Assembly: GCA_009192285.1 (NCBI GenBank)
Contig: WBVU01000008.1
Coordinates: 310,001-374,000, forward strand
Direction: 5' to 3'
Length of the DNA stretch: 64,000 nucleotides
DNA from: Morchella semilibera
Taxonomy: Eukaryota > Ascomycota > Pezizomycetes > Pezizales > Morchellaceae
This document shows positions 4,532-61,955 of this stretch, one piece after another. A program made the translations under genes and the position numbers. The number at the start of each line of letters is the position of its first letter. The stretch's first letter is position 1. The notes beneath the pieces were generated by a model that ran no database searches, was not told the DNA's origin, and saw only the letters and a program-made list of their open reading frames with translations.

Positions 4532-5479
4532 TCACCCTTTTCGAGCCCGCATTTCCGCCCCAAAGGAAACGAACTTCCTAACTATCTCCTCTGCCACCCG
4601 CGGACGCCTGCTCAACATATGCCCCAATGGCGTGTTTCCATCCATGTCCCTGCCGTTTACATCGGCACCCCACTGTGCCAGGAACCAGATCTTCTTTACA
4701 ATGTCGTCGATCTCAAGAGATGTACTCGTACTCGCCTTCATCGCGTAGTGCGTAGGTGTTCTTTGCTTGCTGTCGTGCGCGTTTACATCGGCGCCGGGCT
4801 CCACGGGCGGAGGCGGCATCCACCCGGGAAAATCCCGCGCAGCCAGATGCAGAAGGCTGACACTGCGATTGTAGACGGCACCCACGTCGGCGCCCGCCCG
4901 AATCAACGCCTTTATTAGCACAAAGCCGTAGCACCCGCATCGACCGGCACGGCTCTCGAGAATGTACATTAGCGGTGTATACCCATCGCTGTCCCTTGCG
5001 TTCACCGAGGCTCCAATCGCCAACAGGATGCTAACCCTCTCCACAAGCATTCTATCTAGGTCGAGGCGCACTAGATGGTGTAGCGGTGTTTTCTGCTTGG
5101 TGTCGCGCGCGTTTACATCGGCGCCGGCCTCCACGAGCAGAGCTAGTACCCGAGGAGATTTCCGCGTAGCCAGATGTAGAAGGCTGACATTGCAATTGCA
5201 GGCGGCATTCACGTCAGCGCCCGCACGAAGCAACGCCTCTCGCACATGCTCGTAGTATCTGTATCGATCGGCACGGTTCTCGAAAGTATACATTAGCGGT
5301 GTGGATCCATCGCTGTCCCTTGCGTTCACCGAGGCTCCCTTCGCTAACAAGACCCTAACCTTCTCCGCAAGCATGTCCCGGGAGTCGAGGTGCAGCGGTG
5401 TTCTCTGCTTGATATCCCTCACCTCAGTACTCAAACCCGCCTCTATAAGAACCGATATTGCACCCAAACTCACAAACAA
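4532..5479 (-). CDS. ankyrin-repeat protein, C-terminal part (downstream of a frameshift)
   Basis: The 315-residue frame is made of ankyrin repeats with clear GADVNARD and TPLHL consensus pieces. It shows a higher-order duplication: a unit of about 105 residues containing three ankyrin repeats (GASVNARDSDG, then RAGADVNAA, then EAGADVNARD) occurs twice, followed by a third partial unit. The stop is at 4532. Its upstream end has no ATG and continues from the frame at 5470-6048. Joining the two by one base restores the exact ankyrin spacing (HYA to EAG). Ankyrin arrays mediate protein-protein contacts; no enzymatic domain is seen and no partner can be inferred. Either a gene recently broken or a sequencing error; I cannot separate these. 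Confidence 0.7.
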   Translation of the reverse strand: MFVSLGAISVLIEAGLSTEVRDIKQRTPLHLDSRDMLAEKVRVLLAKGASVNARDSDGSTPLMYTFENRADRYRYYEHVREALLRAGADVNAACNCNVSLLHLATRKSPRVLALLVEAGADVNARDTKQKTPLHHLVRLDLDRMLVERVSILLAIGASVNARDSDGYTPLMYILESRAGRCGCYGFVLIKALIRAGADVGAVYNRSVSLLHLAARDFPGWMPPPPVEPGADVNAHDSKQRTPTHYAMKASTSTSLEIDDIVKKIWFLAQWGADVNGRDMDGNTPLGHMLSRRPRVAEEIVRKFVSFGAEMRARKG

Positions 5480-24421: not shown

Positions 24422-27400
24422 TTATGGCTCTGCCAGCCGCCGCTGCCTCTTAGTCTGCCGTGCTCCGGACTCCGGGGCTACTATGCCTTGACTACAAGTG
24501 CGTGGACGGTTGCTAATAGCTGGTTTAGCGTTTTCATCAGCCAGTGCCTCTTGGGGCTCTGGTGTTGCCAGCCGTTTGCGTGTGTTCTGCTTCCTATTGG
24601 GGTCCGAATCTTCACGGTAAGGTCGTAGGAGCATTTCATGGAACACATTATGAACCTTCCAATCTGCTGGTAGGTCTAGCCGGTACGCCCGATTGCCGAC
24701 TTTTGCTAGTACTTCGAAGGGTCCAGTAGATTTATCTGACCATTTGTTATATCCGCCGAGGTTCCTTGTGTCTAGCAGGACCTTCTGCCCAAGTTCGAAC
24801 TGTTGTACTACGGGACCAGGTCGTGACGCCATTTTATCGTACGTCTGCTGTAAGGTTTCCCGGGCCAGTTCATGGGCGGCGAGGATCTCGTCCAGGTGAT
24901 TATTCCCTTCGGCATCCAGCTGCTCAATCTCCACGTCCGTAGGCCAGTCTAAGCGAGGGTGGAACCCATAGTTGCAATAAAAGGGTGACTGCCCGGTAGA
25001 GGAGTGTTTGGCGTTGTTGTAGGCGTATTCACAAATAGGGAGGAGATCTCTCCACTTCCTGCCTGTGCCGGCCTTAAACGCTTGTAAATAGGACTCCATA
25101 TGCTGGTTAGTCCTTTCCGTCTGACCATCTGTCTGCGGATGAAACAAGGTTGAGAGTCTTCTACGAATCCCTAGTCGTTCTGTGATCGCGGTCCAGAAGG
25201 CTGACAGGAACTGTGTTCCTCGGTCCGATACTATTGATCGCGGGAGTCCGTGAAAGCGCCAAATGTCTTTTACAAAAGCTTGTGCGGTTTGCTCCGCGTT
25301 GATTCCTATCATTGGGATGAAGTGCGCCATTTTACTGAAGCGGTCCACTACAACCATGACGTTCCGGAAACTTGACCGCTCCTTGGGCATTTCTACTACA
25401 AAATCCATGGAGATGTCGCACCAAGGGGTCGTGGCTAATTCTAGGGGCTGTGGAAGAGACATATGTTGTCGTCGTTGTTTAGCTCTTTGGCATACGTCGC
25501 ACGTACTGACATATTTGGCTACATCTGTGGTCATTCCTAGCCACCAGTAGTTCCTGTCAATCAATTCCAAGGTTTTATCTCTGCCTAGATGTCCTGCCGT
25601 GGGTCGGTCGTGATGATCTTCTATGACCTGCTTGACTGCGTGCCCAGGCACTACCCAGCGTCCTTCATGAGTCGCTGTATTCTGATCGGGATCCCACTCT
25701 GTTGCAGCCTCCCGCAAGATGGTCTGCCGGGTCCACAGGTCCTCAGGATCTTCGTTTTCAGGAAGTTCATCTGGAACTATCCTACGAGTCCATCGACCCT
25801 CCTCTTCATACCAGTTCTGCAGAGCCGCAGGCATTCCCACTCCTGGTATGTGTACCCACTGATCCACTAGACGCACTTCCGATGAGGGGTTGCAGAGGAT
25901 TTCTTCACGAGGTTCTATTCCCGCTTGTGTCCTTCTTGCAAAATATTCCGGTGAGAGGAGCGTTTTTACTGGCTGCTCTCGAACTACTCCCCCTTCCATG
26001 GCGTACTCCGGGCGCCTGGTTAATGCATCAGGTTTCCCGTTCTTGTGGCCTGGTCGGAAGTGGATCTTGAAGTGAAAAGGTGCTATCTTTTCAGCCCATC
26101 GAGCCTGTCTTCTCAACAGCTTCTTGGTCGTTGTGAATTACTGAAGGTTTTGGTGATCAGAATAGATCTGGATAGGTATGTCCGTACCTTCCAGCCAATG
26201 TCTCCAGGTCAGGAGGGCGGAAACTATTGCGAGCATCTCTTTATCATATATCTCATAGTTGACTTCGGCCTCGTTGAACTTGCGAGAGTGGTAAGCTACC
26301 GGATGTAACTTGCCATTTTCGAACACCTGTGACAAGACCGCAGCCTCTGCCCAGTCGTTGGCATCTGTTTCAAGGACAGCCATGCGATGTTCGTCGTAGT
26401 GTCGGAGGATAGGGGCGGTGGTAAATAGCTTCTTGAGCCCCTCAAAAGCATCCTGCTGCTCCCGACCCCATTTCCATACGGCATTCTTCTTCAGGAGATC
26501 TGTCATAGGCTTGCATACCGCAGAATACCCGTAGATGAACCGCTTTAGGAAGTTGGCAAACCCCAAGAAGCATTGAAGCTCCTTCACCTTTGTGGATTTT
26601 AGCCACTCAGTGATCGCCTTCACCTTCTCGGGTGAGACCTGGGTGCTGCTACCTGATAGCTTGAATCCTAGGAATTCTATCTCCGTTTGGAACCAAGCAG
26701 TCTTCTTCAGGTTGCCGAATAGGTGGTTTTGTCGTAGCCGCTCCAGCACCCTGCGCACAAGAGCTACATGCTCTTCTCTAGACTTGGAATATATCAGGAT
26801 ATCATCCAAGCAAACCACTAGACCCTGATCTAACAGGTCCTTGAATATGGTATTAACCATTGCCTGGAACGTTGCCGGGGCGTTAGTCAAGCCGAAAGGC
26901 ATTACTCTATATTCAAAGTGGCCATATTTGGTCCGGAAAGCTGTCTTCCACTCTTCCCCTTCTGCGATCCTTACTAGGTTGTAACCGTCCTTGAGATCTA
27001 TTTTGGTGAAGAAGAGAGCTCCCTTCGTCGAGTCTGCCAGCTCTGTCATGAGGGGCAGTGGGTACCGGTTCTTGACTGTAACGGAGTTTAAGCCGTGGTA
27101 GTCGACGCATAACCGTAGTGACCCGTCTTGCTTAGGGACGAAGAGGATTGGTGCCGCTGCTGGGCTGGAAGATGGGACAATTTTACCTGCCACTAACATT
27201 TCGTCCAGGTATTCCCTCAACGCTTTCTGTTCCAGGGGTGACAATGCATAGATAAGGCCGCATGGAGGTTGGCTTCCGTCCAAGAGAGGAATCGTATGAT
27301 CCCACTCACTATGTTCCGGCAGGCGTCCTGCTCCTTCAGGGGAGAACACATCTGCGTAGTCTTGGAACTCTTCCGGGATAGCACTAGCGAGAGTCTCGCT

Positions 27401-27940
27401 TTCCGTACTTCGTGCCCAGAAAGGATGCGACTCAAGAGGCATGTTGGATTCAGGCATGTGTCGTAGAAGTCTGACGACCTTCTCTTGCCAGCCCTCCTCG
27501 TACATGTCCCCTTCTGTCATAATGCAGCCCTTAATCTGGCACTTGATACTATTGAAGGTAGCCTTGTTCTGGCCCCAATGTATCGTAGGTTGATGCTCTT
27601 CGAGCCATCGATGTGGTATGACGAGATCTTCTCCAGCAAAGGTACCGATTTCACAGGTGACTAGCCTGTCGAGGTGGCTACCAATGCGGAGTGTGAGTGG
27701 TTGGGTAATGTGAGTACCGGAGTGAGGCATGCGTGAGCCATCAGCTTGTTTGATGAGGAGAGTTGTGGTGCGAGTCCGAACTGGGATGTCGGCCTGCTTG
27801 ACGCAGTTCCAGGACATAATCCATGTCTCGGTACCACTATCTAGCAGGGCTTGGACCGTATGGGTGAAGTGTTTATCGGTTTTAGGGTTAAGCCATGAGA
27901 TTTCTATGTCAAGACGGGTTTCTCGGGTGATGGTATTCAT
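24422..27940 (-). pseudogene. pol: gypsy pol polyprotein, interrupted by one stop codon
   Basis: A single frame of about 1170 codons with one in-frame TAA at 26138-26140, at the end of RNase H (after SDHQNLQ). Upstream: an aspartic protease with DSGTE at residues 34-38, then reverse transcriptase with FTKIDLKDGYN and the catalytic LDD at 26801-26809, then RNase H with ETDAN. Downstream: integrase with an HHCC zinc-binding module (GHLGRDKT, CDVCQRAK) and the DDE residues in ISMDFVVEMP, SDRGTQF and TDGQTERTN, then a basic tail without a clear chromodomain. The residue before LDD is Cys here and Tyr in the second copy, a change at a normally conserved position. The stop replaces the tyrosine codon that precedes FTTTK. 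Confidence 0.9.
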
Positions 27941-28324
27941 GGTGCTTTTGGATAGGTTGTGGTAATGGTGGAGGAGAATGGTTGATGTTCCTCTCCTGGA
28001 GGCAGATGGGGTCTTCTTATATAGCTAAGTGCGGGGTAGCTCTGACACATCATGTCCAAGAAATACTTTGCCCCAGTCACGAGTTCTTACTTTGCATCGG
28101 CAGTCTCTCCACAGGGTTATGGCAAGTCAACAGTGCGCAGTGGGTCTACTGTTCGCTATCTATGTGGCCCCTCTGATTTCCGAACTTCTAGACTCGAGTC
28201 TTGGTTTCTGACATTGGCCATTGCTTTCTTGCAGTATAGTTTTTATAAAGAGATTTTTATTTCCGCGCCCTAGAACCTTATTTATCCATAGCCTTAATAC
28301 AAAAACCATAAAACAATATGAAAT

Positions 28325-30496
28325 TTAATCTTCCCCAAGTGTCGTAATCCTGGCCCTAAATGCCTCGCCTTGAGGTCCCAGCTTCTGTCTTTTCTCACTC
28401 TCCCCTTCCGGTTCCTTCGCCCTCGAAGTTTTATCCTCCCGTTTCCTCTTTTTCCCACTTAATCTTTATGTCCTACTTGCCATTCTGACTTTAGTGGCCA
28501 AGTAGCATTCCTTCGTCCAATGACCTTCCCTTCCACACCGGAGACATTTGTTTTCCTTCGCCCATTGGTCTTTCTCCACTTGGGTGGCTCCCAGGCTTCC
28601 TGTAGCTGGGCGGGGTTTGTGCGGGGAGTCCTCTCATTCCTTTCTACGGGGAGGGGACTCGTCGCGCTCCTTTTTACGGGGACGGGGTCGTTGGCGTTTG
28701 GATTCTTGTGGCTTAGGTTCTCGAATTTCTTGGGGTCTTGCTGGTTCCCTTCCGCGCAGGATCTTCTGGTGGGCCCTGACTTCAGCATCTTTTCTTCCCA
28801 CTCTTTGAACCCATGCTAACCAATCTGGGAATTCAGATGGTTCTTCAATCGCAGCGGATAATCTCTGTTCCAACGTGGAGTTCATTCCTGTTAGAATCAT
28901 GGATTTCATGACGATTGGACCAACTCGAGCGTCCCATTCAAGGTTCTGCATCTCATTGATGTAATCGTCGATAGGACCAGTTTGACGGAGATTATCCATC
29001 TTCTGCTTGGCCTGTTCTTGGCTGGTGCGATTACCATACTGGATGCGGAGTTCTTGTTTGAAACGTTCCCAAGTACCGAGCCTAGGTTCTACACTAAGCC
29101 TTTCCTTAAAGTTGCGCCAGAAACTTGCTGCACTTCCGGTGAATTCCAGGGATGCCCAAAGGATTCGACTCTTGTCATCCCATGTGACTCGAGGTTGAAG
29201 GTCCATTAGGATCTCCATACGATCGATCCAATATCGGAGATCTTCGTTGGGTTTTCTAGAGAAGGGGATCTTTGCCTGCTTAGGGGTTTCTCCTTTGCGA
29301 TGGCTATGAGGTACTGGTGACTGCGTTTCTGCTCGTCGATGAGGCCTGTCCCTTCTCCTTTTCCGTCTCCTATCGTCCTCGGAGGAGCTGGATGAGTCCA
29401 ATGAGCTTGGACTGTCATCCCTCCTGTGCCTTCTCCTTCTTCTCCCGCCACCATTTCCTCCACCATTTCCTACCGCTCCCTTCTCCAGTACAGGCTCCTC
29501 CTCCCTCCTACGTTTACCGTGGGATCTTCTGGGTGGTGGAGACGGGGATTTACTCCTCCTCCTGTTGGCTGGGGGTGAGGGTGGCGGTGCCCTTCCTTCT
29601 TCTGGGGAGTCATTCTCAGACTCTACCCGGGGTTGCCTCTCCTTGACTGCTTTCAGAGCCATCTTCAGCATCCTCCTCAATTCTGGCTGGATTTTCTCGA
29701 CAGTGGGGGTAGGTGCCTTCGCTAATGAGGCTGCCTGGGCTGCTGTAATAGTCGCCGCTACTCCCTCGGGTACTTCCAGGTTCCTCTCTGTTTGCTGGGC
29801 CTGAATATAAGCCACGAGTTCCTGGGTCCGTTGCTTCTGCTGTTCGCTTTCCAGAGCCATCTGTCTGAACCTAAGCTCAGTTCCCGCCTGTTGGTTTTGC
29901 GCATAGGCCTGGAACTGGTTGGCCAGAGTGCTGAGGATGGTAGTTATCTGCCCTTGCTGTCCGTCTACCTCCTGGAACTTCCCTTGTAATTCTTCCACCA
30001 ATTGTTGCCCGCCTTGGACTACCTGACCGTGTTGGTGTTCCCTGACCCTGGCTTCTGCCTGGAGGGCTAAGTCTGTCTGAGCCGCGAGACCTCTCATGCC
30101 CTGGACGAGTACCTCGGTCCTGAGGGGTCGTGGGGTCTCCTGCTCGTAGAACAGCTCGCCAACGGAGGAGGTGCTGGTGTAGCTGGCATCGCTCATATCC
30201 CCATCCGAACCAGAGCGCCTCACTGTAATAGTGGCTTGCCTGGTTGGAGTCTCGAAGGGGTTGAGGTCTATGCTGGCGGAGCTGCGTGTGACCCTCCTTG
30301 GGTCTCGTTTGCGGACCTTCTTTGGAGCTTTGGCTTTGAGGGAGGCCGGCTTCCATAGCTCTGTGGCGGGGGTATCTCTGGCCCTGCTGGCTATCGTTGG
30401 ATGGGCCTGAGCCATGGCGGTGTCCTTGTCTCGGACCACAATAGCTTCCGCCATGTCTTGGTCTTCCCGCGAGGTCAACGCTAGTGAGAGGGACAT
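28325..30496 (-). pseudogene. gag: gypsy gag, interrupted by two stop codons
   Basis: One frame of about 720 codons runs from ATG at 30496 to TAA at 28325-28327, with internal stops TGA at 28634-28636 (an arginine CGA in the second copy) and TAA at 28466-28468. The N-terminal third is Gln/Glu-rich and helical. The middle has Arg/Ser-rich RRRRHRRDDSPSS-type tracts. A capsid-like part follows (RYWIDRMEILMDLQPRVTWD through ASFWRNFKERL), and near the C-terminus a CCHC zinc knuckle (C-2-C-4-H-4-C, at 28506-28547). The knuckle lies beyond the first stop, so a translated product would lack it. Confidence 0.85.
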
Positions 30497-34556: not shown

Positions 34557-35804
34557 CTAGGCCGTCGATCGCGTCTCGCTCGTCTCACACCGCCGTTCGG
34601 CGGCTGCATCAAGCAGCGCATTTACCAGCTGCATCTCGTGGATCATAGCCGGGTCATTCACGAGAGACTCTGGCCACCTCTGTTCTTGGAGGGCACTGTT
34701 ATACGTTCCCCGCAGCATGTCCCGCGAGACGATATACACCCCCTGGTCTTGTAGGCCCTCCCTCTCCAGCCCCTCGCTCACTGTCTGTTGAGTCTCTGCG
34801 AGGAACTTATCGCGACACTTGACATACAGCCCCGGGTTTTCCCTGATGCGTGCATAGTCGCCGTACTCGCTCATGGCGTTGAGGATGTGCATGTCCGCCT
34901 TTGACCGTACGATAAACAGCGGGACCTTGCACCGCGCACAGTCCGCGATGATGCGCACATCTATCTCCTCGAAGCGGTCGCCGAGCGCCAGGATGACCAG
35001 ATCAAACACATACAGGCCCTGGCGGATGAAGTAGTCTTTGTGCGGGATGCGCTGGGTGCCCGCGCCTGGCACATCGAACCACACAATCCACTTGCGTGGC
35101 GTCTCGGTCCCCGGGTCGCTATACCGCCCGATCTCCAGGGTGGTCTCGATGGTGCCGGTCGGCGCGGCGCCGGCGTCGATGTTGCGGAGGTTGCGGAAGG
35201 CGTTGATGAGCGACGACTTGCCACTGCCGGCCCGCCCGACGATGGCGAAGTGGAAGTTGCTGCTGTCGTATTGGGTCCTGGCTAGCGCCAACTGGAACTC
35301 TTCCTTTGTGGGCCAATGTATCGGGCCGCCGAATCGCTTCTCGGCCTCGAGCTGCAGAGCCTCCTCCTTCTTCTGCTTCTCCTGCTGCTCCTTCTCTTGT
35401 TCCTCGAGCATCCGCCTCATTATGTCGAGCTCTCGCCTCTCCTCCGCGATCTTGGCCAGGGTCTCTTTCTCCTCCTTCTTCCGCGTCTCCTCCTCCTCTT
35501 CCGCCGTTCTGGAGTTCTCCCTCCTCCCCTCCGCATCGGGCATTGACTTCGTCACCCCAGCCTCCAACCGCCTCACCTCCGCCTCTCTCTCCTGGATCTC
35601 CCTCCTTTGCTGCTCCAGCGACTCCTCCTTCCTCGCCCTTTCGCAGGCGGCTTCCTCCTCGCGCTCCAGGTGCAACCGGGTCTCATGCACGGTTTCGTTC
35701 TCTTTTGTGGGGCGAGTGAGCACTATTATGACCGCGGCGCCAAGGATGGAGAGGCCGATGAAGGCGCTGAAGGCGCTGAAGGCGCCGATGATGAGGGGAA
35801 TCAT
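34557..35804 (-). CDS. IRG-like GTPase with N-terminal membrane segment and coiled coil
   Basis: A 415-residue intronless frame. Residues 3-30 form one hydrophobic segment (IGAFSAFSAFIGLSILGAA). Residues about 40-157 are Glu/Lys/Arg-rich heptads, a long coiled coil. Residues about 183-390 form a G domain with G1 GRAGSGKSS (190-198), a G2-type Thr region (APTGTIETT), G3 DVPGAGT (244-250) and G4 RSKAD (300-304). The DxPGxGT motif, the spacing and the FDLVILALGDRF segment match the interferon-inducible (IRG/IIGP) GTPase family rather than Ras or septins. In animals IRGs act on membranes in cell-autonomous immunity; a role here is inference. It is probably membrane-tethered by its N-terminus. It stands alone, with a pyrimidine-rich tract upstream on its sense strand. 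Confidence 0.8.
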   Translation of the reverse strand: MIPLIIGAFSAFSAFIGLSILGAAVIIVLTRPTKENETVHETRLHLEREEEAACERARKEESLEQQRREIQEREAEVRRLEAGVTKSMPDAEGRRENSRTAEEEEETRKKEEKETLAKIAEERRELDIMRRMLEEQEKEQQEKQKKEEALQLEAEKRFGGPIHWPTKEEFQLALARTQYDSSNFHFAIVGRAGSGKSSLINAFRNLRNIDAGAAPTGTIETTLEIGRYSDPGTETPRKWIVWFDVPGAGTQRIPHKDYFIRQGLYVFDLVILALGDRFEEIDVRIIADCARCKVPLFIVRSKADMHILNAMSEYGDYARIRENPGLYVKCRDKFLAETQQTVSEGLEREGLQDQGVYIVSRDMLRGTYNSALQEQRWPESLVNDPAMIHEMQLVNALLDAAAERRCETSETRSTA

Positions 35805-46530: not shown

Positions 46531-47345
46531 CTAGGCTCCCGTATGTATAAACGGTGCCCACCTGAGAACCAAGTCGGTTTTTACCCCCTTCAACTTTACC
46601 ACTGCCCTATGCAACGCCTCCCCCGACCCCAGGCCATCCACGAACAACCCCCTATAATACTCACCGGCCACCATCGTGCACGACTCGTCGTTACCCTCCC
46701 ACATCGTGGCCACCACATTCCGGAAACCCGCCAACATAAACGCCCCCGCGAGATGAATTGTCTCGTCCGCCAGCTCCTGGACGGTGTTTTGTGCCGTGCT
46801 GCAGGCACTCAGGTACGCTACCTGGGCGGCCTCCAGCTTCGTGTCAGCAACCATCTGCACGGTTAGCCTATCCTGCGAGCCATCGTCTTTGCGCAGTAGA
46901 AGGGCGCCGTTGGACGGGTTGGTCTTGTCGGTGATGCCGTGGCACGCAAAGTGGACGGCCTGGTACGACGAGATCTCGCCGAGGACTTCAGAGGCGGTCG
47001 GGTGGGTGAGTGTTTTAACAGTGTGGCTACCGACGAGGGATTCGATGTGGGTGGCTTCCTTGTTGACGCCGTGAAGGTCACTATACTCGGGGGTGGTGGG
47101 CATCTTTATGATCAGAATCGAGAGCGGGGAGGTCAAAGCGGATGCGGGGGCGGGGGCGGGACGGAGGGCGGAGGGCCGCTTCTGTCGTGCGTAGGTGAGG
47201 GCCTTGATTGACGGGATGTACGAGGAGATGACACGGCTGATGGTGTTTTCTGTCGAGCTGGGCGTGTGGATCCCCGCAGCATGGAACGGCGCAAAACTCA
47301 GCGGTCCGCTGCCCACCCACCAGATATGTGGAAGCACCCCTGCGT

Positions 47346-47376
<31 letters not shown>

Positions 47377-50300
47377 AGCGGCCCCGGTGATGCCCAGCTC
47401 AGCGAGCACCGGCTCGACAACAACATCCCACAGCCACTTCATCGTCAACTTCACGCTCCTATTCCGTTTCTGATACGTCGGCACACTCCCGCGAACATGC
47501 TTGTTCGTAAGGTCAAAAATATGCTTTTCCGCCTCCTCCCTCTGCCATCGCGACAGTTTTATGCTCCTGATGCTCTCCGTCGTCACGAGTATAGCTTGGC
47601 AGTGCTCCTTCCAGCAATTGAAGACGACGATCGGGCCCTCCGCCGCCATCCGCCTCAGCTCCTCCCCCGTAGGGGGGAGTAGAAAGTTCTCGTAGCCCTC
47701 TAGGCTCCGGATCTTGGCTAGGGACTCCTCTAGTTGCTCCACGGCCTCCTTTCGCCGCGCGAGGAGGCCCCCCTCGCCGAGGTGGGCGAGTTGCTCGCTC
47801 AGCCCCCCACGCTCCTGGGGTGCCCAGACCGCACTGTCGAGTTCGCGGCGGAGAGAGTCGAATACTTGGTACAGCTCTGGGTGCGCGGTTTGGAGATCCG
47901 ACATGTCGCTGCGGCAGTCCATGATGAACCCCCTGATTATCCCACGGCCGAGCTCGAGGAGCCGGAGTGCCCGCTCGGCCCCACGGCCGGCCTCGAGGGA
48001 GGCACTGGCCGCGACGATGGGTACCCCGGAGAGCATCTTGATGAGTGCCTCCTGGTCCGACCTAGCAAGGGACGGCGGTGTAACTCGCGGCATCAGCTTT
48101 ACGCACTCCTCGAAGATGTCGGCGGCCTCGTCCCATCGCTTCGACCTCGTCAGGGCATCACCGATGCGGGTCGCTGCGCGGATCCTGGTGAGTGGTGGTG
48201 CCGTGGGGCTCTCCCAGGCGTCGCGGAATGTGACGAAGGAGCGCTCGCCGTCAGGGCCGGTGCTCTCGAGTGCCTCGTAGCGGGTGAGGTAGCATCGGGC
48301 GAGGGTGTCGAGGGTCTCTGCACGGTTCGGGTGCTCGTCGTCGATATGCAGGGCGGCCTGCTCAAGGCAGTGGATCGCGTGGTCGATGGAGGGCATGTCG
48401 CGGTCGCGGTGGTATTTACTACGCAACAGGCGGCCAAGGAGGTGGGCAATCTCGGGCGCGGTGATGTTGATGCCGCCGGTCTTGAGGAGGTCCCAGGCTT
48501 GCTGCGTGAGTGATATTGCGTGGTCGAGGTCGCGCCAAAAGGCCGTGAAGTCGCGGTGGCGGCGATGGAGGGCCTCGGCCACGATGTAGAGCCGGCGGCA
48601 GATGTTCTCGTCCCCCTCCGGCGTCATCTCGAGACAGTGTTCTCCCATCGTGATGGCACTGAATAGGTCCTCTCGTTTGCCGCACGCCTTGTATCGTTCA
48701 AGAAGCCGCTCGCAGAGCTCGGTCATACGCTGCAGACGAGATCTGTGGTCGGGTGGCGTGCAGTCGAGGCCCTCCCTCGCCGTCTTGACCGCCAGCTCGA
48801 GGTCCCCCATCGCCCCAATGCGGCGATGCCTTATCTTCAGCAGCTCGCTCAGTCTACTGAGATACTCGCCCTTTGTGGCCGTCAAGTCCTCCGCGCTAGC
48901 CACCGAGGCATAGCTACTATTCACTGCCCGCTCCAGGTCCTTGACGTTCCCCATTCGATCGTAGCGTATATGATACGCCTGTGCCAGAATGCCCAGCACG
49001 CGCGCGCGATCCGGATGTCCGACCCCGGCCGCGGCCGCAGCCCGCTCCATTACCGCCACAGAAGCATTAAGACCCTCCTCGCCATCGCCGTGGAGGCGTC
49101 TCGTGCGCTCCGCCAGTTTTATCATTGTCCCGGGGACGATTCTGTGACCCATTGGGATCTCTTTGAGGGCCAAGCGGGTGAGGAGGATTGACATCTCGGG
49201 GTCTCCTTCCTCTTTGCCGTGGTCGAGGATCGTTGCGAGGTTGAGCATCCGCTCTGGATAGAGCTGCGCGCCGCGGGGGGTCCTCTGCATCGACTCTTTG
49301 GCGTATTTTGCGGCCTCGGCAATGTCGGAAGGCTGTCTGAATGTGTGCGAGGTATACCGCTCTAGGAGCTGCATCGCGAGGTTTCCCATGAGGCCCGGTG
49401 CATCGACGGTGCTGCCTTCATCTTCACTAGCCTCCAGCGCCCGCCGAAGCGTCGATATGCCTGTGTCAATGTCCGCCTTCGTCCCGTAGACCCGGAAGCG
49501 GCCCATGTAGGTGTTTCCCAGGTTGAGCAGCCGCCCCGCGTGCTCCGGATGGTCCCTCGGCGTCGCTTCCGACGCTGCCTTTGCAAACTGTAGGGCGCGG
49601 TCGACGTCCGCCGCGTCGGACCCGTGCTTGTGGCGTCTATATAGAGCGGCGCTGATATTTGTCTGGAGATAGAGCAGCTCCTCGCCCCCAGCGACGCCGA
49701 GCGCCCCCTCCAAAGTCTCGATACACCGATCAATATCCGCGCGGTCACCGCGCATCAGGTACCGATCCGATAGAGCCTTTCCTAGTACCTGAGAAGCCGT
49801 TCCATACGCGCTCTCCGTGGGCTCCGTCGCCGCCAGGGCAATCGTAGCGGTCTTGATGCAGTTATCTAGGTCTTCCGCCTTGTTCTGCTCTTGGAAACGC
49901 AGATATAGTCCCACCGCGAGGTCCATGAGTGACTTTACGTCTGCATCACCGCTATCAACCACCGCCTGCAGCTTCATGAACCTGCCCGTATCGGTAAGAG
50001 TCTTTATCCTCCACTGGAAATACTCCATCTTTGGATGCGACTCAGGCAGCGCCCCGACTCCGTCCATTACCGCCGCAAGGATCCCCGCGTCATCGTTGGG
50101 GTTCCGCAGCTCCATCGCGCTGATCAACCCCCCGAGGGCGCAGGCATATAAATCGCTGTCCTCCACGCCGAGTGCCATGGCGAGCTGAAACCGCTCGATC
50201 GACTTCTCAATGTCCCCCCGGTGGTACAGCCACCTAGCCAGCTTAAAGTGCACGAATGCCAACTCCGTGTCGCTCACTCCCATCCCGTGTACCGCGCGAT

Positions 50301-51318
50301 ACGCTGATTCCAGGACTGTCCTCTCTTCCGCCAAAGCAATACACCTATCTAGATCTTCTGGCTTCTGCAGTACATCGTACCGCTGCGAGTGCGCTTTGCA
50401 GAGAAGCTCCGTGATTGGTATTCGCACTGGTGTGTCTTCCTCCAGGATACCGAGCGTACGTGAGAGTAGTTCGATCTGGGCAGACAGGTCTGAGAGCTCC
50501 CAAGTGTGCAGCCAGCTCAGGTTGTGAATCTCGACGAGGTTAATAATGGCAGCGCTTCGGATAGTGCGCGGCGGGGCAAGCAGTGAGACTGCGATGCGGG
50601 CGTGCCGGAAAGCCCCCGCGAGTGAACGTGTGTTTAAGGTGCGAGCGAAGTGCGTCCGATAGGCGGTGGAGAGTATGTAGTGCGCTGCGGGGTGGTGAGG
50701 TGATTTGGTCGGTATAGAGAGGAGAAAGGAACGGGCTTCGCGGATTGACAGCTCAGAAAGGGCATCGGCCCTCATAGGGCTGTGTGCATCTACGAGATTG
50801 AAGAGGAGGGCATCATCGGCGGGGATCGGGGCCGGCCAGAGGTCCGGTATAGGAGTGTCGTCGGGCGGGTATTCCACCATGTCGGGTTCATTGCTGTCAT
50901 CGGAGCAGGACTCGCCGTTCTTATCTTTGCCCTGTGTGCGAGAGGCGCTGGTTGAGGCATCGTCGCCGTCGTCGCCGTCGTCCTCGTTGTCGTCGCTGTC
51001 GACCTCTGCCTCCACCTCTGGCGCTGCGGGCTCGGCGGGCTCGGAGACTACTTTGCTTTTGCCTTTGCCTTTACCCCTATCCGGATATTTATGTGCACCT
51101 ATATCTGTATCCGTATTGCTCTGTGTATCTGCATTCATATCCCCATTCGCATCTTCAGTTCGTCCGTGGTTTTGGCTCTGGTCAAACATGCTGGTGCCCA
51201 GGTCCGCGTGTTCTGCGGCGGCTTTTTCTACGAGTGCCACTGCGGAATCTATGTCCATGTCCGGTGCTCCCTGCAGGTAAAGACCACAGCACACATTAGC
51301 CTTATTCCTTGTAGTCAT
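46531..51318 (-). CDS. TPR-CHAT protein (caspase-like CHAT protease with TPR array)
   Basis: A 1595-residue intronless frame from ATG at 51318. Residues about 1-190 are disordered and acidic (DSDDNEDDGDDGDD). Residues about 190-1150 are tetratricopeptide-like helical repeats, with recurring YxxxGDxxDIDRCIxxLExAL units. Residues about 1220-1595 form a CHAT domain. The catalytic pair is present: His1460 in HFACHG (codon 46939-46941) and Cys1506 in LSACST (codon 46801-46803). The end reads WAPFIHTGA, as is usual in fungal CHAT proteins. A glycine run at about residue 1310 comes from a GCC repeat near 47341-47382. CHAT is a caspase-fold cysteine protease family; TPR-CHAT proteins are effectors of regulated proteolysis. 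Upstream on its strand lies a pyrimidine-rich tract. A divergent gene 2.7 kb away may encode its substrate (inference). Confidence 0.9.
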
Positions 51319-51419
51319 GTGAATTCATGGCGGAGAACGGGGGGGGGGGGGTAAGAGCGACAGCTCGAGATGGTGCGACAGCCCCCCGTTCTGGGTGCTT
51401 TAGAGACTTTGCATAAATG

Positions 51420-51512
51420 GAGAAAGATGGAGAGAGGGGGGATAGGGGGGATGGGGGAGAGGGTAAAATAGTAGAGGCCTAGGAGAGAGAGTGGATCTAT
51501 ATATATTTCGGC
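51420..51512 (-). promoter_or_regulatory. probable CHAT gene promoter: CT-rich tract with TATA-like box
   Basis: On the gene's strand a TATATATAG box (about 51499-51507) is followed by a C/T-rich tract (CTCTCTCC, then CCCCCATCCCCCC) ending about 100 bp before the ATG at 51318. The order TATA then CT tract then start codon is common in filamentous fungi. Confidence 0.4.
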
Positions 51513-51642
51513 CATCCGATAATTTGGCAGAGTTAAGCAAAGAATAGACCAGCGCCAAGCCACCAAGTCACCTACCGCAAAGGCGGCGCTGGCTCCCCCC
51601 TACCCACCCCACTTCCATCTCTCTATCCTTTTCTCATACTGG

Positions 51643-51990
51643 TCAATCATCATCACTACTTACAAATCCAATGGAGAACCTGAACCCTCCCGGGCCCTCA
51701 AATGGCATATTGTACTTCTTATGTCGGCGGGCCCGCATCTCAGGTATGTCGGGGCTGGACGGGTCGCTCAGTTGTACATGTTCAATAAACCTGGACAGCA
51801 AGACCTCGGTTATGTGATCTATGGGCGGCCGGGGTGGGTCATCGAGCGCGGGCGACGGGAGGTCTTCGGAGTCCAGTGCAGGTGGGGGGAATGAGGAGCC
51901 GGAGGAGGAGGAGGGGAGCGTGAGGGAGGTGAGGGCGCCGCGGGGGGTGCCGGGGGGGGAGTCGGAAGTGTTGGAGGATGAGGGCGCCAT
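51643..51990 (-). CDS. small disordered hypothetical protein
   Basis: With the ATG at 51990 the frame encodes 115 residues: a Ser/Pro-rich first half, then DHITEVLLSRFIEHVQLSDP (possible helix) and a C-terminus ending GFRFSIGFVSSDDD. The frame is open upstream but that extension is low-complexity. No family recognised. It lies on the CHAT gene's strand, with 324 bases between its stop and the CHAT start, so it could be an independent small gene. Codon-level support is modest. Confidence 0.45.
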   Translation of the reverse strand: MAPSSSNTSDSPPGTPRGALTSLTLPSSSSGSSFPPPALDSEDLPSPALDDPPRPPIDHITEVLLSRFIEHVQLSDPSSPDIPEMRARRHKKYNMPFEGPGGFRFSIGFVSSDDD

Positions 51991-52941
51991 GGATGCTTGT
52001 GTATAGATAGATGGTAAAGCTAGAATCGTTTGTTGGTGGTGTCGGTAGTAACTCTGGAGTAGTAGGGATGAGCTATTACATATATATCTACAAGCAAGTA
52101 AGTATCTCTGCGGCGAAGGCCTTGAGGACCCAGTGTCAGATATCAACTCAAGGTACTACCTCCTTTTACAAGAGCTACTCTTACCACTGCCCCCCCCCTC
52201 CCCTACATCCTTCCCACCCTCTTGACTACCTACGGAGTATGACTCGTCGTTTTGCATGTGGGGCTACTGTATGCGTACTCGCAAACTCATGGCCTTTCCG
52301 AACTCGGCCACGGGGGTATGGTTCTCACGGGGGTATGGTGCAACGCCTAACATCAAGAGAGTCCAAGGCAAATTGGTAAAAAACAATGTATGAATAGGAT
52401 ACCCTAGTTTTCCTTGCGTCCACAACGCTCGTTTTTTTCGACGTTCTTGGTTGTTGCATCATACCCCCCGTGGGAGGCCTTGTGCATACATAACCAATCA
52501 ATTTATCACTCAAAGTATGTAACTGGTCATGTCTCAAAGGCACCAATTACCATCTCTGCCCTGTTGTTACTATTATTATTTGTGATACAGCCTTGAGCAG
52601 CGCGATCGGACATCATACGTTTATGACTAGCTATCGGATCGATACCTAAATGATGCCCCGCGGAATGAGGCTCTACCAGCTATGTAAATGCATCGGGATG
52701 ATATGAATCATCGATGGAAAGTGCTCAAGATTCACAACTGAAATGAATTGTTTTACGATGGGGGAATGAGTCAAGAAAGAACAAGCCGACACTTTTCGTG
52801 GCACATTTTTTCAATTACTATCCAGTAATAAAATATGAACAAAAATATGAACAAAACGTACGTGGATTCCATGGCCCATATTATATGAACACACCAATTA
52901 ATTATAATCTGATTCGTTTACATACTTTAACGCCGGAACGA

Positions 52942-53006
52942 ATATTCTTGGCGTTTTTTTTCTGTATGCAATATTAGTCGTGTTCTAAAATATGTGACCG
53001 CGAGCA
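52942..53006. mobile_element. CTCGCAA-family MITE, partial copy
   Basis: Contains TTCTTGGCGTTTTTTTTCTG, then TATGCAATATTAGTCGTGTTC and ACCGCGAG, matching the right half of the full copy at 53182-53303. The left half is absent. Confidence 0.5.
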
Positions 53007-53181
53007 GAAGAAATTCCACACCAGACTTGTTTATCCGGGGGGTGGGGGGCAGCATTTCATCGCTCCATACTAAGAGAGGGGCTTGGGTGGGTGCTATATC
53101 GTTGTGTGTGGGGTACACTTGTGGGGTACATGTCCCTGTTCTGTCACCTGCGGGGCTGCGGTCGGCAACCGTTTACAGGTT

Positions 53182-53303
53182 CTCGTAGGTCCATGACGTT
53201 TCCGAACACAAACGCTATTGCATGCCATACAAAAGGTCAATCTTGGCGGTTTTTTTTGCGTATGCAATATCAGTCGTGTTCGGAAACAATATGCAATTGC
53301 GAG
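53182..53303. mobile_element. TA-flanked palindromic MITE, CTCGCAA family, copy 3
   Basis: 122 bp from CTCGTAGGTCCATGACGTTT to AACAATATGCAATTGCGAG, with arms sharing CGTTTCCGAACAC. TA follows the right end; the left TA is mutated. Interior TATTGCATGCCATACAAAA is shared with the other copies. Confidence 0.7.
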
Positions 53304-53403
53304 TACCAGATTGAACATCATCTATCCACTCTGCCCACTCTGCTATACACCATTTTCTTCTCCGGCGTTGTCCCCAGCCTCCTCCCTTTTTTTTTTTTTT
53401 AAC

Positions 53404-53485
53404 CTTCTCAGCCTTTTCTTCGGCCCTCCTTTCTTCAGCCTTATCTTCAGCCTTCTTCTCTTCAGCATTTTCTTCACCCTTCCCC
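53404..53485. repeat. imperfect CTTCAGCC(T)TTT repeat
   Basis: About six units of 10-17 bases, built on TTCTTCAGCCTT, follow a 15-base T run. On the minus strand they read as KAEEK/KAEDK/RRAEEK units in an open frame of 100 codons that continues into a MITE, so I do not call a gene. It could be a pyrimidine-rich promoter tract for the plus-strand gene at 54052. Confidence 0.45.
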
Positions 53486-54051
53486 GCACCGCGCACGATA
53501 TATACGGACACTCCCAAAAACGAACCACACAGGTAAGAAAAGACCCCTGAGTCTTTTACGCAGCTTGGGCATGGCCTGGCTCCCAGTATGGATTATCTTC
53601 TGAAGCACTGGTTGGATGGTGTAGATCAGCTCTTCTAATAGTAATCTTGATCCCATCTCTGTCGGGTTGAGGCTCAACAATCCAGCTCGGTTCGTTACTC
53701 CGGTATCTGATAAGTTGTCAGGCCAAATTGCAACGAGGCACTTAAACCCTTTCTAGTAACCGTGATATAAACAGCGCAAGAAACTGAAATATTGATGCAA
53801 ATTGTGATGCATGCCAAGGACTACCACATAGACTTTCTAGGCGTTACATTCATCACGTTGCCATAAAGGGTTTAGGTGACTGAAAATTAGCCTAGATACA
53901 CAGCCAATTTTTGAGTGGTTACACGCATGAAGAATAGGGTTAGGGGCAGACCGCTAGGACCGGCATATGCATACCCCTCCCCCGCCCGCGCCAGCGTGCT
54001 GGGGTCTACTAATACCTAACTACCCTTGATACGATAGTGAGATACACTTCC

Positions 54052-54975
54052 ATGGAAACATCTCCAGAATCTCCAAGGAACAAAACACCTACTACGGCCA
54101 TGCCCATGACCTCCGTCTTCCAACCCGCTCTCCTCCCCCTCTCCGCCGTCTCCCTCGGCCGTCTCATCAGAAACACCAAATCCCCACACCAAGACTACCT
54201 CAACCCCACTCTCCCGACCCCCCCGGAAACGCTCAAGAACCCACAGGTCGGCTACCGCGAGCTGATCACGTCCACCCGGACAATCAAACTCCGCGGGCGG
54301 CTGATGCAGCTCCTCCGCGCGTCACACGAGTCCCACAAACACTCCCAGCTGGACCTCTCCGCCACAAGCGCCTACACCTACTCCCTCTGCAACAGCACCT
54401 CCTTCTTCGAGGCCGCCTGCGGCACGCAGGCCGTCCGTGCGTGGCTCCAGGACACCATCGAGAGAGGCGATGACGCCTATCTCGTTGTGGGGTATCACAC
54501 GGTTGTCGATGCGCAGTTTGGGGCGGGGCGCGCGCAGGGCACGGTGGATATGCAGGTGGGATCGGTAGGGGTCGCGGAGGTGACGGGGTTTCCGGGGGTA
54601 AAGGGGTTGGATGTTGGGGCGGCGGTGGAGTGCGACGTGGGGAGGGTCTCGACGAGGTGGTTCGTGGCGCCGGGGGAGCAGGTGTACGCTGTGCAGTATA
54701 GGAAGGTGGCGTTCAGGTGGTATAATTGGAGAAAGAGGGTGGAGAGTGGGATGTTGAAGGAGAATATGTGGAGGGTTTATGCGGGGAGGGGGGGAACGGA
54801 CGATACGGGAGAGGACGATACGATGGAAGCGGTGTTGGTCGGGGATGAGGGGGTGGAGGTGGGGGGAGGTGGGAAGAAGGATGAGGACGAGGATGAAGAA
54901 GAAGAAGAGGAAGAGGAAGAGGAAGAAGAGGAAAAGTGGGTGAGCGAGGATGGGGAGGAAGTGTGGGTGTTGTAG
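54052..54975 (+). CDS. candidate gasdermin-like protein (hypothetical)
   Basis: An intronless frame of 307 residues from ATG at 54052 (context TTCCATGG). Residues 1-65 are Pro/Thr-rich with LPLSAVSLGRLI. Residues about 70-230 form a compact predicted alpha/beta region with a helix (RGRLMQLLRASHE), then DDAYLVVGYHTVVDA (141-154) and, after glycine/valine-rich strands, VAPGEQVYAVQYRKVAF (205-221). The pair of a YxVxG/T strand and a later PxGxVxAxxxRxV strand recalls the N-terminal pore-forming domain of gasdermin-like proteins; this is pattern memory, not a search result. The C-terminus is a long acidic tail with an uninterrupted run of glutamates from a GAA/GAG repeat (54894-54932). Fungal gasdermin-like proteins are known to have a short C-terminal inhibitory tail removed by a clustered protease. 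Alternative: an unrelated fungal family of unknown function. Confidence 0.45.
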   Translation: METSPESPRNKTPTTAMPMTSVFQPALLPLSAVSLGRLIRNTKSPHQDYLNPTLPTPPETLKNPQVGYRELITSTRTIKLRGRLMQLLRASHESHKHSQLDLSATSAYTYSLCNSTSFFEAACGTQAVRAWLQDTIERGDDAYLVVGYHTVVDAQFGAGRAQGTVDMQVGSVGVAEVTGFPGVKGLDVGAAVECDVGRVSTRWFVAPGEQVYAVQYRKVAFRWYNWRKRVESGMLKENMWRVYAGRGGTDDTGEDDTMEAVLVGDEGVEVGGGGKKDEDEDEEEEEEEEEEEEEKWVSEDGEEVWVL

Positions 54976-58164: not shown

Positions 58165-61100
58165 TGCCTCTTAGTACTGGCCGTGCTCCGGATCCGGGCT
58201 ACTATGCCTTTGGACTCCGAGTGCGAGGACGGTTGCCCTGATGACCGGTTGCATTCTCGTCAAGCCAGGGCCTCTGTGCGGGCTCTTGGTGTTGCCCAGC
58301 CGTTTGCGAGTGTTCTGTGCTTCCTTATTTAGGGTCCGAATCCTCTCTCGATAAAGAGCCGTAGGACATCTTCATGGAACACGTGTGAACCTTCCCAAGT
58401 CTGCTGGTAGATCTAGTCCGGTACGCCTCGATTAAATACCGATTCTTTCGCTATACTCGAAGGGTCCGGTGACTTATCTGACAACTGTTGTATTCCGCCG
58501 AGGTTTCCTTGTATCTAACAGGACCTTCTGCCCTGGTTCGAACTGCTGTGCTGCGGGACCAGGTCGTGACGCATTTTATCGTACGCTCTGTGTAGGTTTC
58601 CCGGGCCAGTTCATGGGCGGCGAGGATCTCGTCCAGGTGATTATTTCCTCCGGCATCCAGCTGCTCAATTTCCACGTCCGTAGGCCAGTCCGTGCGAGGG
58701 TGAAACCCATAGTTGCAATAGAATGGTGACTGCCCGGTAGAGGAATGTTTGGCGTTGTTGTAGGCATATTCGCAGATCGGAAGTAGGTCTCTCCACTTCT
58801 TACCTGTGCCAGCTGTAAACGCTCGTAGGTAGGACTCCATATGCTGGTTAGTCCTTTCCGTCTGACCATCTGTCTGCGGATGGAACGAGGTCGAGAGTCT
58901 TCTACGAATCCCTAGTCGTTCGGTGATCGCGGTCCAGAAGGCTGACATCGAAACTGAGTTCCTTGGTCCGATACTATTGATCGCGGGAGTTCCAATGATA
59001 AGCGGCAGTGTCCTTTGACGGATGTGCTTCGTGCGGTTTGCTCCGCGTTGATTTCCTGTCATTGGTATTGAAGTGCGCCATTTTACTGAAGCGGTCCACT
59101 AGACAACCATTGACGTTCCGGAAACTTGACCCGCTCCTTGCGGCAATTTTCTACTACAAAATCCATGGAGAGTCGCACCAATACCAAGGGGTCGTGGCTA
59201 ACTCTAGGGGCTTGTGGAAGAGGACATACTGTTCGTCGTCGTTGTTTTGGCTTTTTGGCATACATCGCACGTGCTGACATACCTTGGCTACATCTGGTGG
59301 TCATTCCAGGCCACCAGTAGTTCTGTCAACAAAATTCCAAGGTTTTTATCATCTGCCTAAAGCCCGCCGTGGGTCGGTCGGGTGGTCTTTCTATAACCCT
59401 GCTTGACTGCAATGCCCAGGCCAACTACGCAGCGTCTCTTCCATGAGTCGCTGTATTCTGATCGGGGATCCCACCTCTGTGGCAGCCTCTCGCAATGATA
59501 GTCTGCCGAGTCCACGGGTCCTCAGGATCTTCGTTTCAAGGAGTTCATCCGGAACTGTCCCTGCGAGTCCATCGAACCCTCTTCTTCATACCAGTTCCTG
59601 CAACCCGCAGGCATTCCCACTACCTGGTATGGTGTACCCACTGAATCCACTGGCGCACTTCTGATGAGTGAATTGCAGAGGATTTCTTCACAGCGTTCTA
59701 TTCCCGCTTTGTGTCCTTCTTGCAAATGTCCGGGGAGGAGGATTCTCCTCGCAAATGTGTTCAGGAGATGAGGAGCATTTTTTACCTGAGCTGCTCCGAA
59801 CTACTCCCGCTTCCATGCGTACTCACGGGCGCCTGGTTAAAGCACAGGGGTTTCCCGTTCTTGTCCGCCTGGGCCGAAAGTGGATTTTGAATGAAAGGTG
59901 CTATCTTTTCAGCCCATCGGCCTGTCTTCTTTGACAGCTTCTTGGTTGTTGTGAAGTACTAGAGGTTTTGGTGATCAGAATTATCCTGGATAGGTATCGT
60001 CCCGTACCTTCCACAGCCAATGTCTCCCAAAGGTCAGGGAGGGGAAACTATTGCGAAGCATCTCTTTTAATCGGTAATCTCATAGTTGATTCCAGCCTCG
60101 TTGAACTGCGAGAGTGGTAAGCTAACCGGATGTAACTTGCCATCTTCGAACACCTGTGACAGGAACGCTGCAGTCCTCTGCCAGTCGCTGCTCTGTTTCA
60201 AGGGACAGCCATACGATGTTTCGTGGTAGGTCGGAGGATTAGGAGCGGTGGTAAATAGCTTCTTGAGCCCCTCAAAAGCATCCTGCTGCTCCCGACCCCA
60301 CTTCCATACAGCATTCTTCTTCAGGAGATCGGTCATGGGCCGGCATACCGCAGAATACCCGTAGATGAACCGCCTTAAGAAGTTGGCGAACCCCAGGAAG
60401 CATTGAAGCTCCTTCACCTTTGTGGGAATTAACCACTCAGTGATAGCCCTCACCTTCTCGGGTGAGACTTGGGTGCCGCTACCTGATAGCTTGAATCCTA
60501 GGAATTCTATCTCCGTTTGGGACCAAGCAGTCTTTTTCAGGTTGCCGTATAGGTGGTTTTGTCGTAGCCGCTCCAGCACCTTACGCACCAGCGCTACGTG
60601 CTCTTCTCTGGACTTGGAATATATCAGGATATCATCCAAGTAAACCACTAGACCCTGATCTAACAGGTCCTTGAATATGGTATTGACCATTGCCTGGAAC
60701 GTTGCCGGGGCATTGGTCAAGCCAAACGGCATTACTCTATATTCGAAGTGGCCATATTTGGTCCGGAAAGCTGTCTTCCACTCTTCTCCCTCCGCGATCC
60801 TTACTAGGTTGTAGCCGTTCTTGAGATCTATCTTGGTGAAGAAGAGAGCTCCCTTCGTCGAGTCTGCCAGCTCTGTCATGAGAGGCAGTGGGTACCGGTT
60901 TTTGACTGTGACGGAGTTTAAGCCGCGGTAGTCGACGCATAACCGTAGCGACCCATCTTTGTTTAGGGACGAAGAGGAATTGTGCCGCTGCGGCTGAGAT
61001 GGGACAAATTTTACCTGCCCGCTAACCATTCGCAGGTAATTGCCCTCAACGCTTCTGTTCGGGGGTGACAATGCCGAGATAGAGCCAGGCGGTTGGCTTC

Positions 61101-61955
61101 CGTCCAAGAGAAGCAATTAATGAATCCCACTCACGATGTTCCGGCAGCGTCCTGGTGGGTGTTTTGCTGGTTGCTATCCTAGTGGCCTTGCGGGGGGGTG
61201 TGTGTGGGGCCTGGGGGGGGAGGTGGGTGTGTGGTTGCCTGCCTGGGCTGCTGCTTGGTGGGACTGTCCTTGTTCTCCTTAGGGGGCTGCGGGTGGCGGG
61301 GGTGGTGTGGGTGAGCGCCCTTCAGGGGAGAACACATCTGCGTAGTCTTGGAACTCTTCCGGGATAGCACTAGCGAGAGTCTCGCTTCCCGTAGACCGTG
61401 CCCAGAAAGGGTGTGACGTGAGAGGCATGTCAGGTTCAGGCATATGTCGTAGGAGTCTGACGACCTTTTCTTGCCAGCCTTCTTCATACATGTCTCCTTC
61501 TGTCATCATGCAACCCTTATAATCTGGCATTTGAATACTGTTGAAGGTTAATGCCTTATTCTGGCCTCCAAATGTAATCGTAGGTTGATATGCTCTTCGA
61601 GCCATCGATGTGGTAGACGGATTTCCCCAGCAAAGGTACGCTATTTCACAACAGGTGACTAACCTGTTCGGGTTGGTCACCGAGCGGAGTGGTGAGAGGT
61701 TGGTGATGTGAGTACCTGGAGTGAGGCATGCGTGAGCTCAGCTTGTTTTAATAAGTGAAGAGTGTGGCGCGAGTCTGAAACGGGATCTCGCCTTCTGACA
61801 CCAATCTCCAGGACATGATCCATGTCCGGTGCCTGCTGTCTAAGCAAGCTTGGACAGTGGTGGGTGAAGTGTTTATTTTTTTGGGGTTTTTTAGAGATTA
61901 AGCCATGAATTATCTGGTCCTCGGGCGGGTTTTCTTGGGTGACGGTAGTCATTGT
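58165..61955 (-). pseudogene. pol: gypsy pol, copy 2, multiply frameshifted
   Basis: Readable pieces: integrase core at 58451-58980 (TDGQTERTNQHMESYLR); reverse transcriptase at 60067-61116 with FTKIDLKNGYN and an intact YLDD; protease-proximal pieces at 61330-61950. A TAG replaces a glutamine near 59965, close to but not identical with the stop site of copy 1. A G/T-rich insertion lies at about 61154-61317. Confidence 0.85.
61154..61317. other. G/T-rich insertion of about 165 bp inside pol of copy 2
   Basis: Copy 1 reads continuously from GTTCCGGCAG through GCTCCTTCAGG (27310-27345). In copy 2 about 165 bases of almost pure G/T/C with many G and T runs separate the two halves. The block has no inverted repeat, no target duplication that I can see, and no match elsewhere in the window. 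Confidence 0.7.

Follow-up and report, generated by a model that had tools for sequence, protein, structure and literature searches.

The window analysed here is a 64,000-base stretch of the Morchella semilibera genome (C22:310001-374000 in an assembly of 56,756,124 bases and 23 contigs, given C numbers below), and it contains two divergently transcribed genes with 2.8 kb between them. One encodes a large protein with tetratricopeptide repeats (TPR) and a C-terminal CHAT protease domain, and the other a small protein with an acidic C-terminal tail (Table 1). A first-pass annotation made from the sequence alone had placed these genes at 46531-51318 (-) and 54037-54975 (+) and read them as a pair in which a CHAT protease activates a gasdermin-like pore-former. 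Both genes lie at these places, and from the recurrence of the pair in this genome and the profile similarity of the small protein to a fungal gasdermin we consider it quite probable that they form a fungal CHAT-gasdermin cell-death module.

The large protein matches the CHAT family (PF12770) with 147.2 bits against a curated cut-off of 24 in the Pfam scan (E = 9.3e-43), together with TPR models, and its His/Cys dyad is intact, as first annotated. In an alignment with the CHAT protein Csx29 (E = 0.00064), H1460 and C1506 fall on its HG and AC positions, which we take to be the catalytic residues of that protein. The small gene is, as had been described, a single intronless frame, within an open reading frame (ORF) that spans 54037-54975 (+); the 307 residues given for its product probably have to be revised, since a start at 54100 fits the relatives described below better than one at 54052. 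In seven of nine intact relatives, the sole in-frame ATG ahead of the conserved start region sits right at that region, which makes the shorter protein more likely; two relatives (L012 and L023) have extra upstream ATGs, and the nearest one was chosen as their start. The strand motifs YLVVGYHTVVDA and PGEQVYAVQYRKV, which the annotation had singled out, are present in the small protein and belong to the core conserved across a family that has ten intact members in this genome.

Table 1. Features of the gene pair, with positions numbered from the first base of the window
Feature	Position	Strand	Basis
TPR-CHAT protease gene, candidate sensor and activating protease	46531..51318	-	one open frame, 1595 amino acids; Pfam CHAT 9.3e-43, TPR_12 2e-07
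CHAT (caspase-like) domain, residues 1293-1594	46537..47442	-	Pfam match, alignment
Catalytic His1460 codon in HFACHG	46939..46941	-	read from sequence; aligned to Csx29
Catalytic Cys1506 codon in LSACST	46801..46803	-	read from sequence; aligned to Csx29
Gasdermin-like gene, single frame, likely 291 amino acids (ATG at 54052 would make 307)	54100..54975	+	ORF, starts of relatives
Strand motif YLVVGYHTVVDA, conserved	54478..54513	+	family alignment; aligned to RCD-1-1 VYMITGIIVA
Strand motif PGEQVYAVQYRKV, conserved	54670..54708	+	family alignment; aligned to RCD-1-1 GDFVWAVRLAKI
Arg230-Gly231, core/tail boundary, proposed cleavage point	54787..54792	+	RG in 11/11 readable CHAT-linked copies
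Acidic C-terminal tail, 61 amino acids, net -28 (core +7), proposed inhibitory segment	54790..54972	+	charge count
Intergenic region separating the divergent genes	51319..54099	.	ORF positions

Recurrence of the gene pair in the genome

Searching the genome with the small protein returned 23 rows with E values of 1 or less. After collapsing the duplicate contigs C21 and C22, merging the pieces of single genes and dropping C2:3151k, a row limited to the acidic-tail end of the protein (E = 0.02), 16 places encoding relatives remained: ten intact genes (alignment A1), four interrupted, truncated or frame-shifted copies (C16:950k, C6:1697k, C14:49k and C16:1024k) and two fragments (C21/C22:1031k and C14:1201k), the latter with E values of 0.009 and 0.07 in the protein search and 1.6e-11 and 3.2e-10 with a core profile. 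Using the C17 member as query returned 17 rows without adding a place, and no relative was found in a viral collection searched with the window protein. The partners are 22-46% identical to the small protein of the window, and the conserved features of the family comprise LGRL near the start, YL[VI]VG..T..DA, GEQVFAV.YRKV, a Trp (W224) and Arg-Gly before the tail.

A CHAT search of the genome gave 20 rows, which reduced to 15 loci after the same collapse of C21/C22 and merging of pieces. Twelve of the 16 partner places have a CHAT match within 10 kb (12 of 17 with the tail-only C2:3151k kept), including eight of the ten intact partners, and 12 of the 15 CHAT loci have a partner. The latter count becomes 12 of 16 with an additional CHAT-like place without partner (C21/C22:1137-1139k), which is found when the whole CHAT protein is used as query. 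Eleven of the linked pairs are divergent and one is convergent (C5:15k/20k). By chance, 0.08 of the 16 places would be expected to be linked (binomial 8.5e-25, a figure that assumes independent places, which duplicated pairs are not). The linkage count therefore rules out a chance neighbourhood and, within this one genome, strongly supports the gene pair proposed at the outset. Among ten linked CHAT domains that were aligned (those of C16:957k and C6 were left out), the catalytic Cys is kept in all ten and the His in nine.

Three CHAT loci are without a partner (C21/C22:211k, C4:2620k and C5:99k), and the core profile found no partner piece in the DNA upstream of the first (L032) and the last (L033) of these. 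The CHAT gene at C5:97-101k is instead divergent from a gene with a caspase domain (L033:515-2140 (-), C5 ~94.0-95.6k; Peptidase_C14, 3.3e-11), possibly as a protease-protease pair. Activation of the small-protein family by subtilisins was also considered and is unsupported: of at least 12 S8 protease matches, none among those listed comes closer than 10 kb to any place encoding a partner.

Several observations concern how the copies arose and where they lie. The CHAT tree and the partner tree both group the pairs at C1:69-75k and C16:968-975k as sisters with bootstrap 100 (the CHAT row of the latter locus being one of two pieces), and they were therefore duplicated jointly. At three loci the damage extends to both members: partner and CHAT gene are interrupted at C16:950-958k; the CHAT gene has stops and the partner a single stop, inside the tail, at C6:1697-1704k; and at C22:1022k Arg replaces the CHAT His, with only a fragment of the partner present. 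Seven of the 12 linked pairs are located in the terminal 130 kb of a contig (p = 0.006 in a combined test with uniform position per contig as the null, the distance having been picked after the data were seen), and five lie within 75 kb of an end with telomere-like repeats (C1, C5, C14, C17 and C6); the window pair, ~360 kb from the contig start, is outside this near-end group. Nine contig ends were read; the array at C16 is degenerate, and the ends of C21, C22 and C23 carry none. The arrays (L052, L053, L054, L055 and L057) consist largely of a ten-base unit, CCCTAACTAA / TTAGTTAGGG, and not of plain TTAGGG; among the papers listed as holding this string, none concerns fungal telomere repeats.

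Contigs C21 and C22 start alike, with matching loci out to ~1.14 Mb, as haplotype copies or an assembly duplication would, and the window pair and its C21 copy are identical over 8701 bases. The partner at C22:1684k has no C21 counterpart in the protein search, and since its two flanks (C22:1680-1690k) are also without a long match on C21, its presence or absence is uninformative.

Similarity of the small protein to gasdermins

Profile searches were run against 177,635 solved-structure sequences, with matches up to E 10 considered. The full-length profile (A1) gave 12 matches, of which the first two lie in the acid-rich region (top E = 0.0072) and the third is RCD-1-1 of Neurospora crassa (8jyz, E = 0.078), the best match outside the acidic tail. 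Because the first two matches fell in the acid-rich region, the tail was trimmed for two further profiles, A2 with 15 rows, including separate pieces of interrupted copies, and A3 with 12 rows. A2 gave three matches, with RCD-1-1 entries first (E = 0.0034) and second (E = 0.036) and WYL1 third (E = 0.67), while A3 had RCD-1-1 at the top (E = 0.039) and WYL1 second (E = 0.35). The acidic tail is thus rejected as the source of the match, given that the tail-free profiles leave only the two RCD-1-1 entries and the WYL1 chain. The A2 alignment covers both strand motifs and extends over RCD-1-1 chain residues 125-234. A decoy of reversed A3 rows gave a single match at E = 1.5; it is a control for A3, and the best score came from A2, which had no decoy. 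The window protein alone as query found only two matches, both unrelated (E = 0.21 and 1), and bacterial gasdermins were not among the matches up to E 10 for any of the three profiles. The similarity to a fungal gasdermin across the profiles (E = 0.0034, 0.039 and 0.078) is weak, and together with its span over both motifs it suggests that the small protein is likely homologous to gasdermins, as had been supposed.

The acidic tail noted in the first-pass annotation is confirmed, with a net charge of -28 over 61 residues against +7 over the 230 residues of the core, and this gene shares it with the whole family. All ten intact members have net acidic tails (-7 to -33), and nine of their cores are net basic (+3 to +10), that of L012 being neutral. 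C22:1684k, a copy without a CHAT neighbour, has the least acidic tail (-7); its row lacks Arg-Gly, and its tail was taken from a cut at residue 231. Arg-Gly stands at the boundary in all 11 readable CHAT-linked copies, in L011 after an insertion; the twelfth linked copy (1031k) has a stop before the boundary. Among three readable unlinked copies only one has Arg-Gly, and there it is displaced. This contrast between linked and unlinked copies was noticed post hoc and serves as a lead only. Two relatives, L016:1495-2427 (C17:68k) and L025 (C16:1024k), have translations that end hydrophobic after the acidic tail, as if membrane-anchored.

The geometry of the tail has a precedent in HET-Q1 of Podospora anserina, a protein of 278 residues for which a loss of 40 residues after F238 was inferred (PMC10989679). 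The 291-residue protein of the window, with its boundary at 230, fits this arrangement in that both are similar in size and carry a short C-terminal segment. Separases cut after Arg, and a cut at Arg-Gly in particular stays a proposal, which we rate at somewhat below an even chance. The resemblance of CHAT to caspases and separases is described in PMC12881547. Among the literature titles listed, a fraction of the papers matched and with most subscription journals not covered, none concerns acidic tails of fungal gasdermins, which says little about absence.

Weighing the readings of the pair

A number of results weigh against reading the pair as a CHAT-gasdermin module. A Pfam scan of the ten members matched no family in more than one member, the best E value of 0.05 being to an unrelated family. 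The gasdermin Pfam model that the first-pass annotation had wanted searched, PF04598, matches nothing in the partner proteins or elsewhere in the genome. The small protein is accordingly not filed under PF04598, a silence that we do not count against membership in the wider fungal family. An hhalign comparison with a 110-residue piece of RCD-1-1 gave a probability of 39%, the same piece as sequence query had no match in the genome, and AlphaFold, run on single sequences without alignment, returned two models with pLDDT (predicted local distance difference test) values of 36 and 34. The gasdermin fold is thus read from sequence only, since Pfam is silent and the single-sequence models are unusable. 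As for the pairing, four of the 16 partner places lie more than 10 kb from any CHAT match (C1:4106k, C22:1684k, C16:1024k and the C14:1201k fragment). Most of the other forks in the CHAT tree are open and it disagrees in part with the partner tree, setting C14 and C5:1415k apart from the window when the partner tree groups both with it. Distance matrices carry no signal of co-evolution in the eight of 12 linked pairs that could be compared (r = 0.02, a value equalled or exceeded in 15508 of 40320 permutations), the comparison leaving out C16:968k, whose CHAT domain falls into two overlapping hits, and three loci for which no full sequence pair was available (C6, C16:950k and C22:1022k). Decay is not joint everywhere, either: the C5:15-20k locus combines an intact partner with a short CHAT frame (402 residues) preceded by stops, and C14 combines a long CHAT frame (1593 residues) with a frame-shifted partner.

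The alternative that survives best keeps the small protein as substrate or partner of the CHAT protease and denies that it is a gasdermin, making it an unrelated beta-rich membrane or signalling protein with a regulatory acidic tail. The lack of a significant Pfam match, the unusable AlphaFold models and the weak hhalign score would all be compatible with such a protein. However, RCD-1-1 tops both tail-free profiles, is the best match of A1 outside the tail and aligns across both motifs, and the reversed A3 rows gave nothing below 1.5, so that we regard this alternative as unlikely.

Less probable again is that two unrelated genes travel together in segmental or subtelomeric duplications without any functional dependence. 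Duplication is frequent near telomeres, where the five pairs close to telomere-like repeats lie, and the gene trees agree only in part, as this explanation would allow. It sits poorly, however, with a linkage and a mostly divergent orientation that persist at such low partner identity, with the three loci at which both members are damaged, and with the clustering of CHAT and gasdermin genes published for other fungi. Finally, the small protein might restrain the protease as an inhibitor or antitoxin, with the CHAT protein as killer, a role for which the acidic tail could serve as pseudosubstrate and for which there is the general example of divergent effector/inhibitor gene pairs, but which we consider very improbable given the similarity to RCD-1, itself a pore-forming executioner, a precedent that runs from CHAT to gasdermin, and copies without a CHAT neighbour (intact at C1:4106k and C22:1684k, truncated at C16:1024k) that an inhibitor would leave unexplained.

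Surroundings, proposed mechanism and known systems

A further ORF lies between the two genes, at 51643-52146 (-). Beyond itself and its C21 copy it found a single match, which is insignificant (E = 0.61), and the Pfam scan gave none; for these reasons it is not counted as part of the pair. Upstream of the gasdermin-like gene, at 53703-53881, lies a repeat of ~180 bases that is 90-95% identical at at least five other places and has imperfect 25-base inverted arms, resembling a miniature inverted-repeat transposable element. Frames of Ty3/gypsy-like polyproteins, recognised by eye from the translations, flank the pair on both sides (24422-30496 (-) and 60067-61116 (-)). Elsewhere in the window, a gene at 34557-35804 (-) encodes an IIGP (interferon-inducible GTPase) domain (2.4e-22) in a product with, by eye, a hydrophobic N-terminus and a charged coiled-coil-like region. 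There is also an ankyrin-repeat frame at 4532-5479 (-) and a winged-helix/ankyrin frame at 18614-19519 (-), below Pfam cut-offs, that is presumably of a type occurring in fungal NACHT receptors. The neighbourhood of the pair may thus be rich in immune-type genes.

Under the CHAT-gasdermin reading, the TPR region of the large protein would detect a cue, upon which its C-terminal CHAT cysteine protease would become active. The substrate would be the pore-former encoded by the divergent neighbour, with a net basic core of ~230 residues that may be held inactive by the 61-residue acidic tail. Cleavage at or near Arg230-Gly231 would free the tail, and the freed core could then oligomerise in the membrane and cause cell death.

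Fungal gasdermins number ~1900 in 400 genomes, ~80% of them near a protease gene, with S8 neighbours given as ~63% and CHAT neighbours as ~19% for the group as a whole (PMC10197012). The present family departs from this pattern in that S8 neighbours, common in that review, are absent among the matches listed here. The closest parallel is in Podospora anserina, where a TPR-CHAT protease activates the gasdermin of a two-gene cluster (PMC12881547, citing Clave et al. 2022); as in the window, a TPR-CHAT gene lies beside a short-tailed gasdermin gene, a likeness that we draw from the descriptions in PMC12881547 and PMC10197012. In the HET-Q1/HET-Q2 system, by comparison, the activator is a subtilisin-like serine protease whereas the neighbour here is a CHAT protease, and HET-Q1 and HET-Q2 are alternative genes at one locus whereas the genes of the window are neighbours. 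RCD-1-1 and RCD-1-2 differ in another way, being triggered without cleavage when two allelic forms meet (PMC12881547), in contrast to the cleavage proposed here. Bacterial gasdermins likewise combine a pore protein clustered with a protease gene and a short inhibitory C-terminus (PMC10989679). Csx29, the TPR-CHAT protein of type III-E CRISPR systems, has a CHAT domain in common with the large protein, and the His and Cys motifs of the two align. Csx29 acts with a guide-RNA complex on Csx30.

Taken together, this fungus appears to carry about a dozen diverged copies of the CHAT-gasdermin pair. The best reading is that a kind of pairing already known in fungi is represented here by an acidic-tail subfamily to which the window pair belongs, and the possibly new aspects are how many diverged CHAT-only pairs this one genome carries, the conserved charge of the tail and the Arg-Gly at the boundary. 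More tentatively than for the cut site itself, we suggest that these pairs form an expanded CHAT-only gasdermin subfamily with an electrostatic lock, in which a variable poly-acidic tail would neutralise the basic core until a separase-like cut after the boundary Arg, with a related branch (C17:68k and the truncated, unlinked C16:1024k) whose hydrophobic tail end would possibly anchor it in the membrane. The activation of fungal sensors and the inhibition by short microbial gasdermin tails are called open in PMC12881547 and PMC10989679. A single genome with ~12 diverged pairs, a shared Arg-Gly and tails that keep their charge and not their sequence is a ready test set for cut-site specificity and charge locking.

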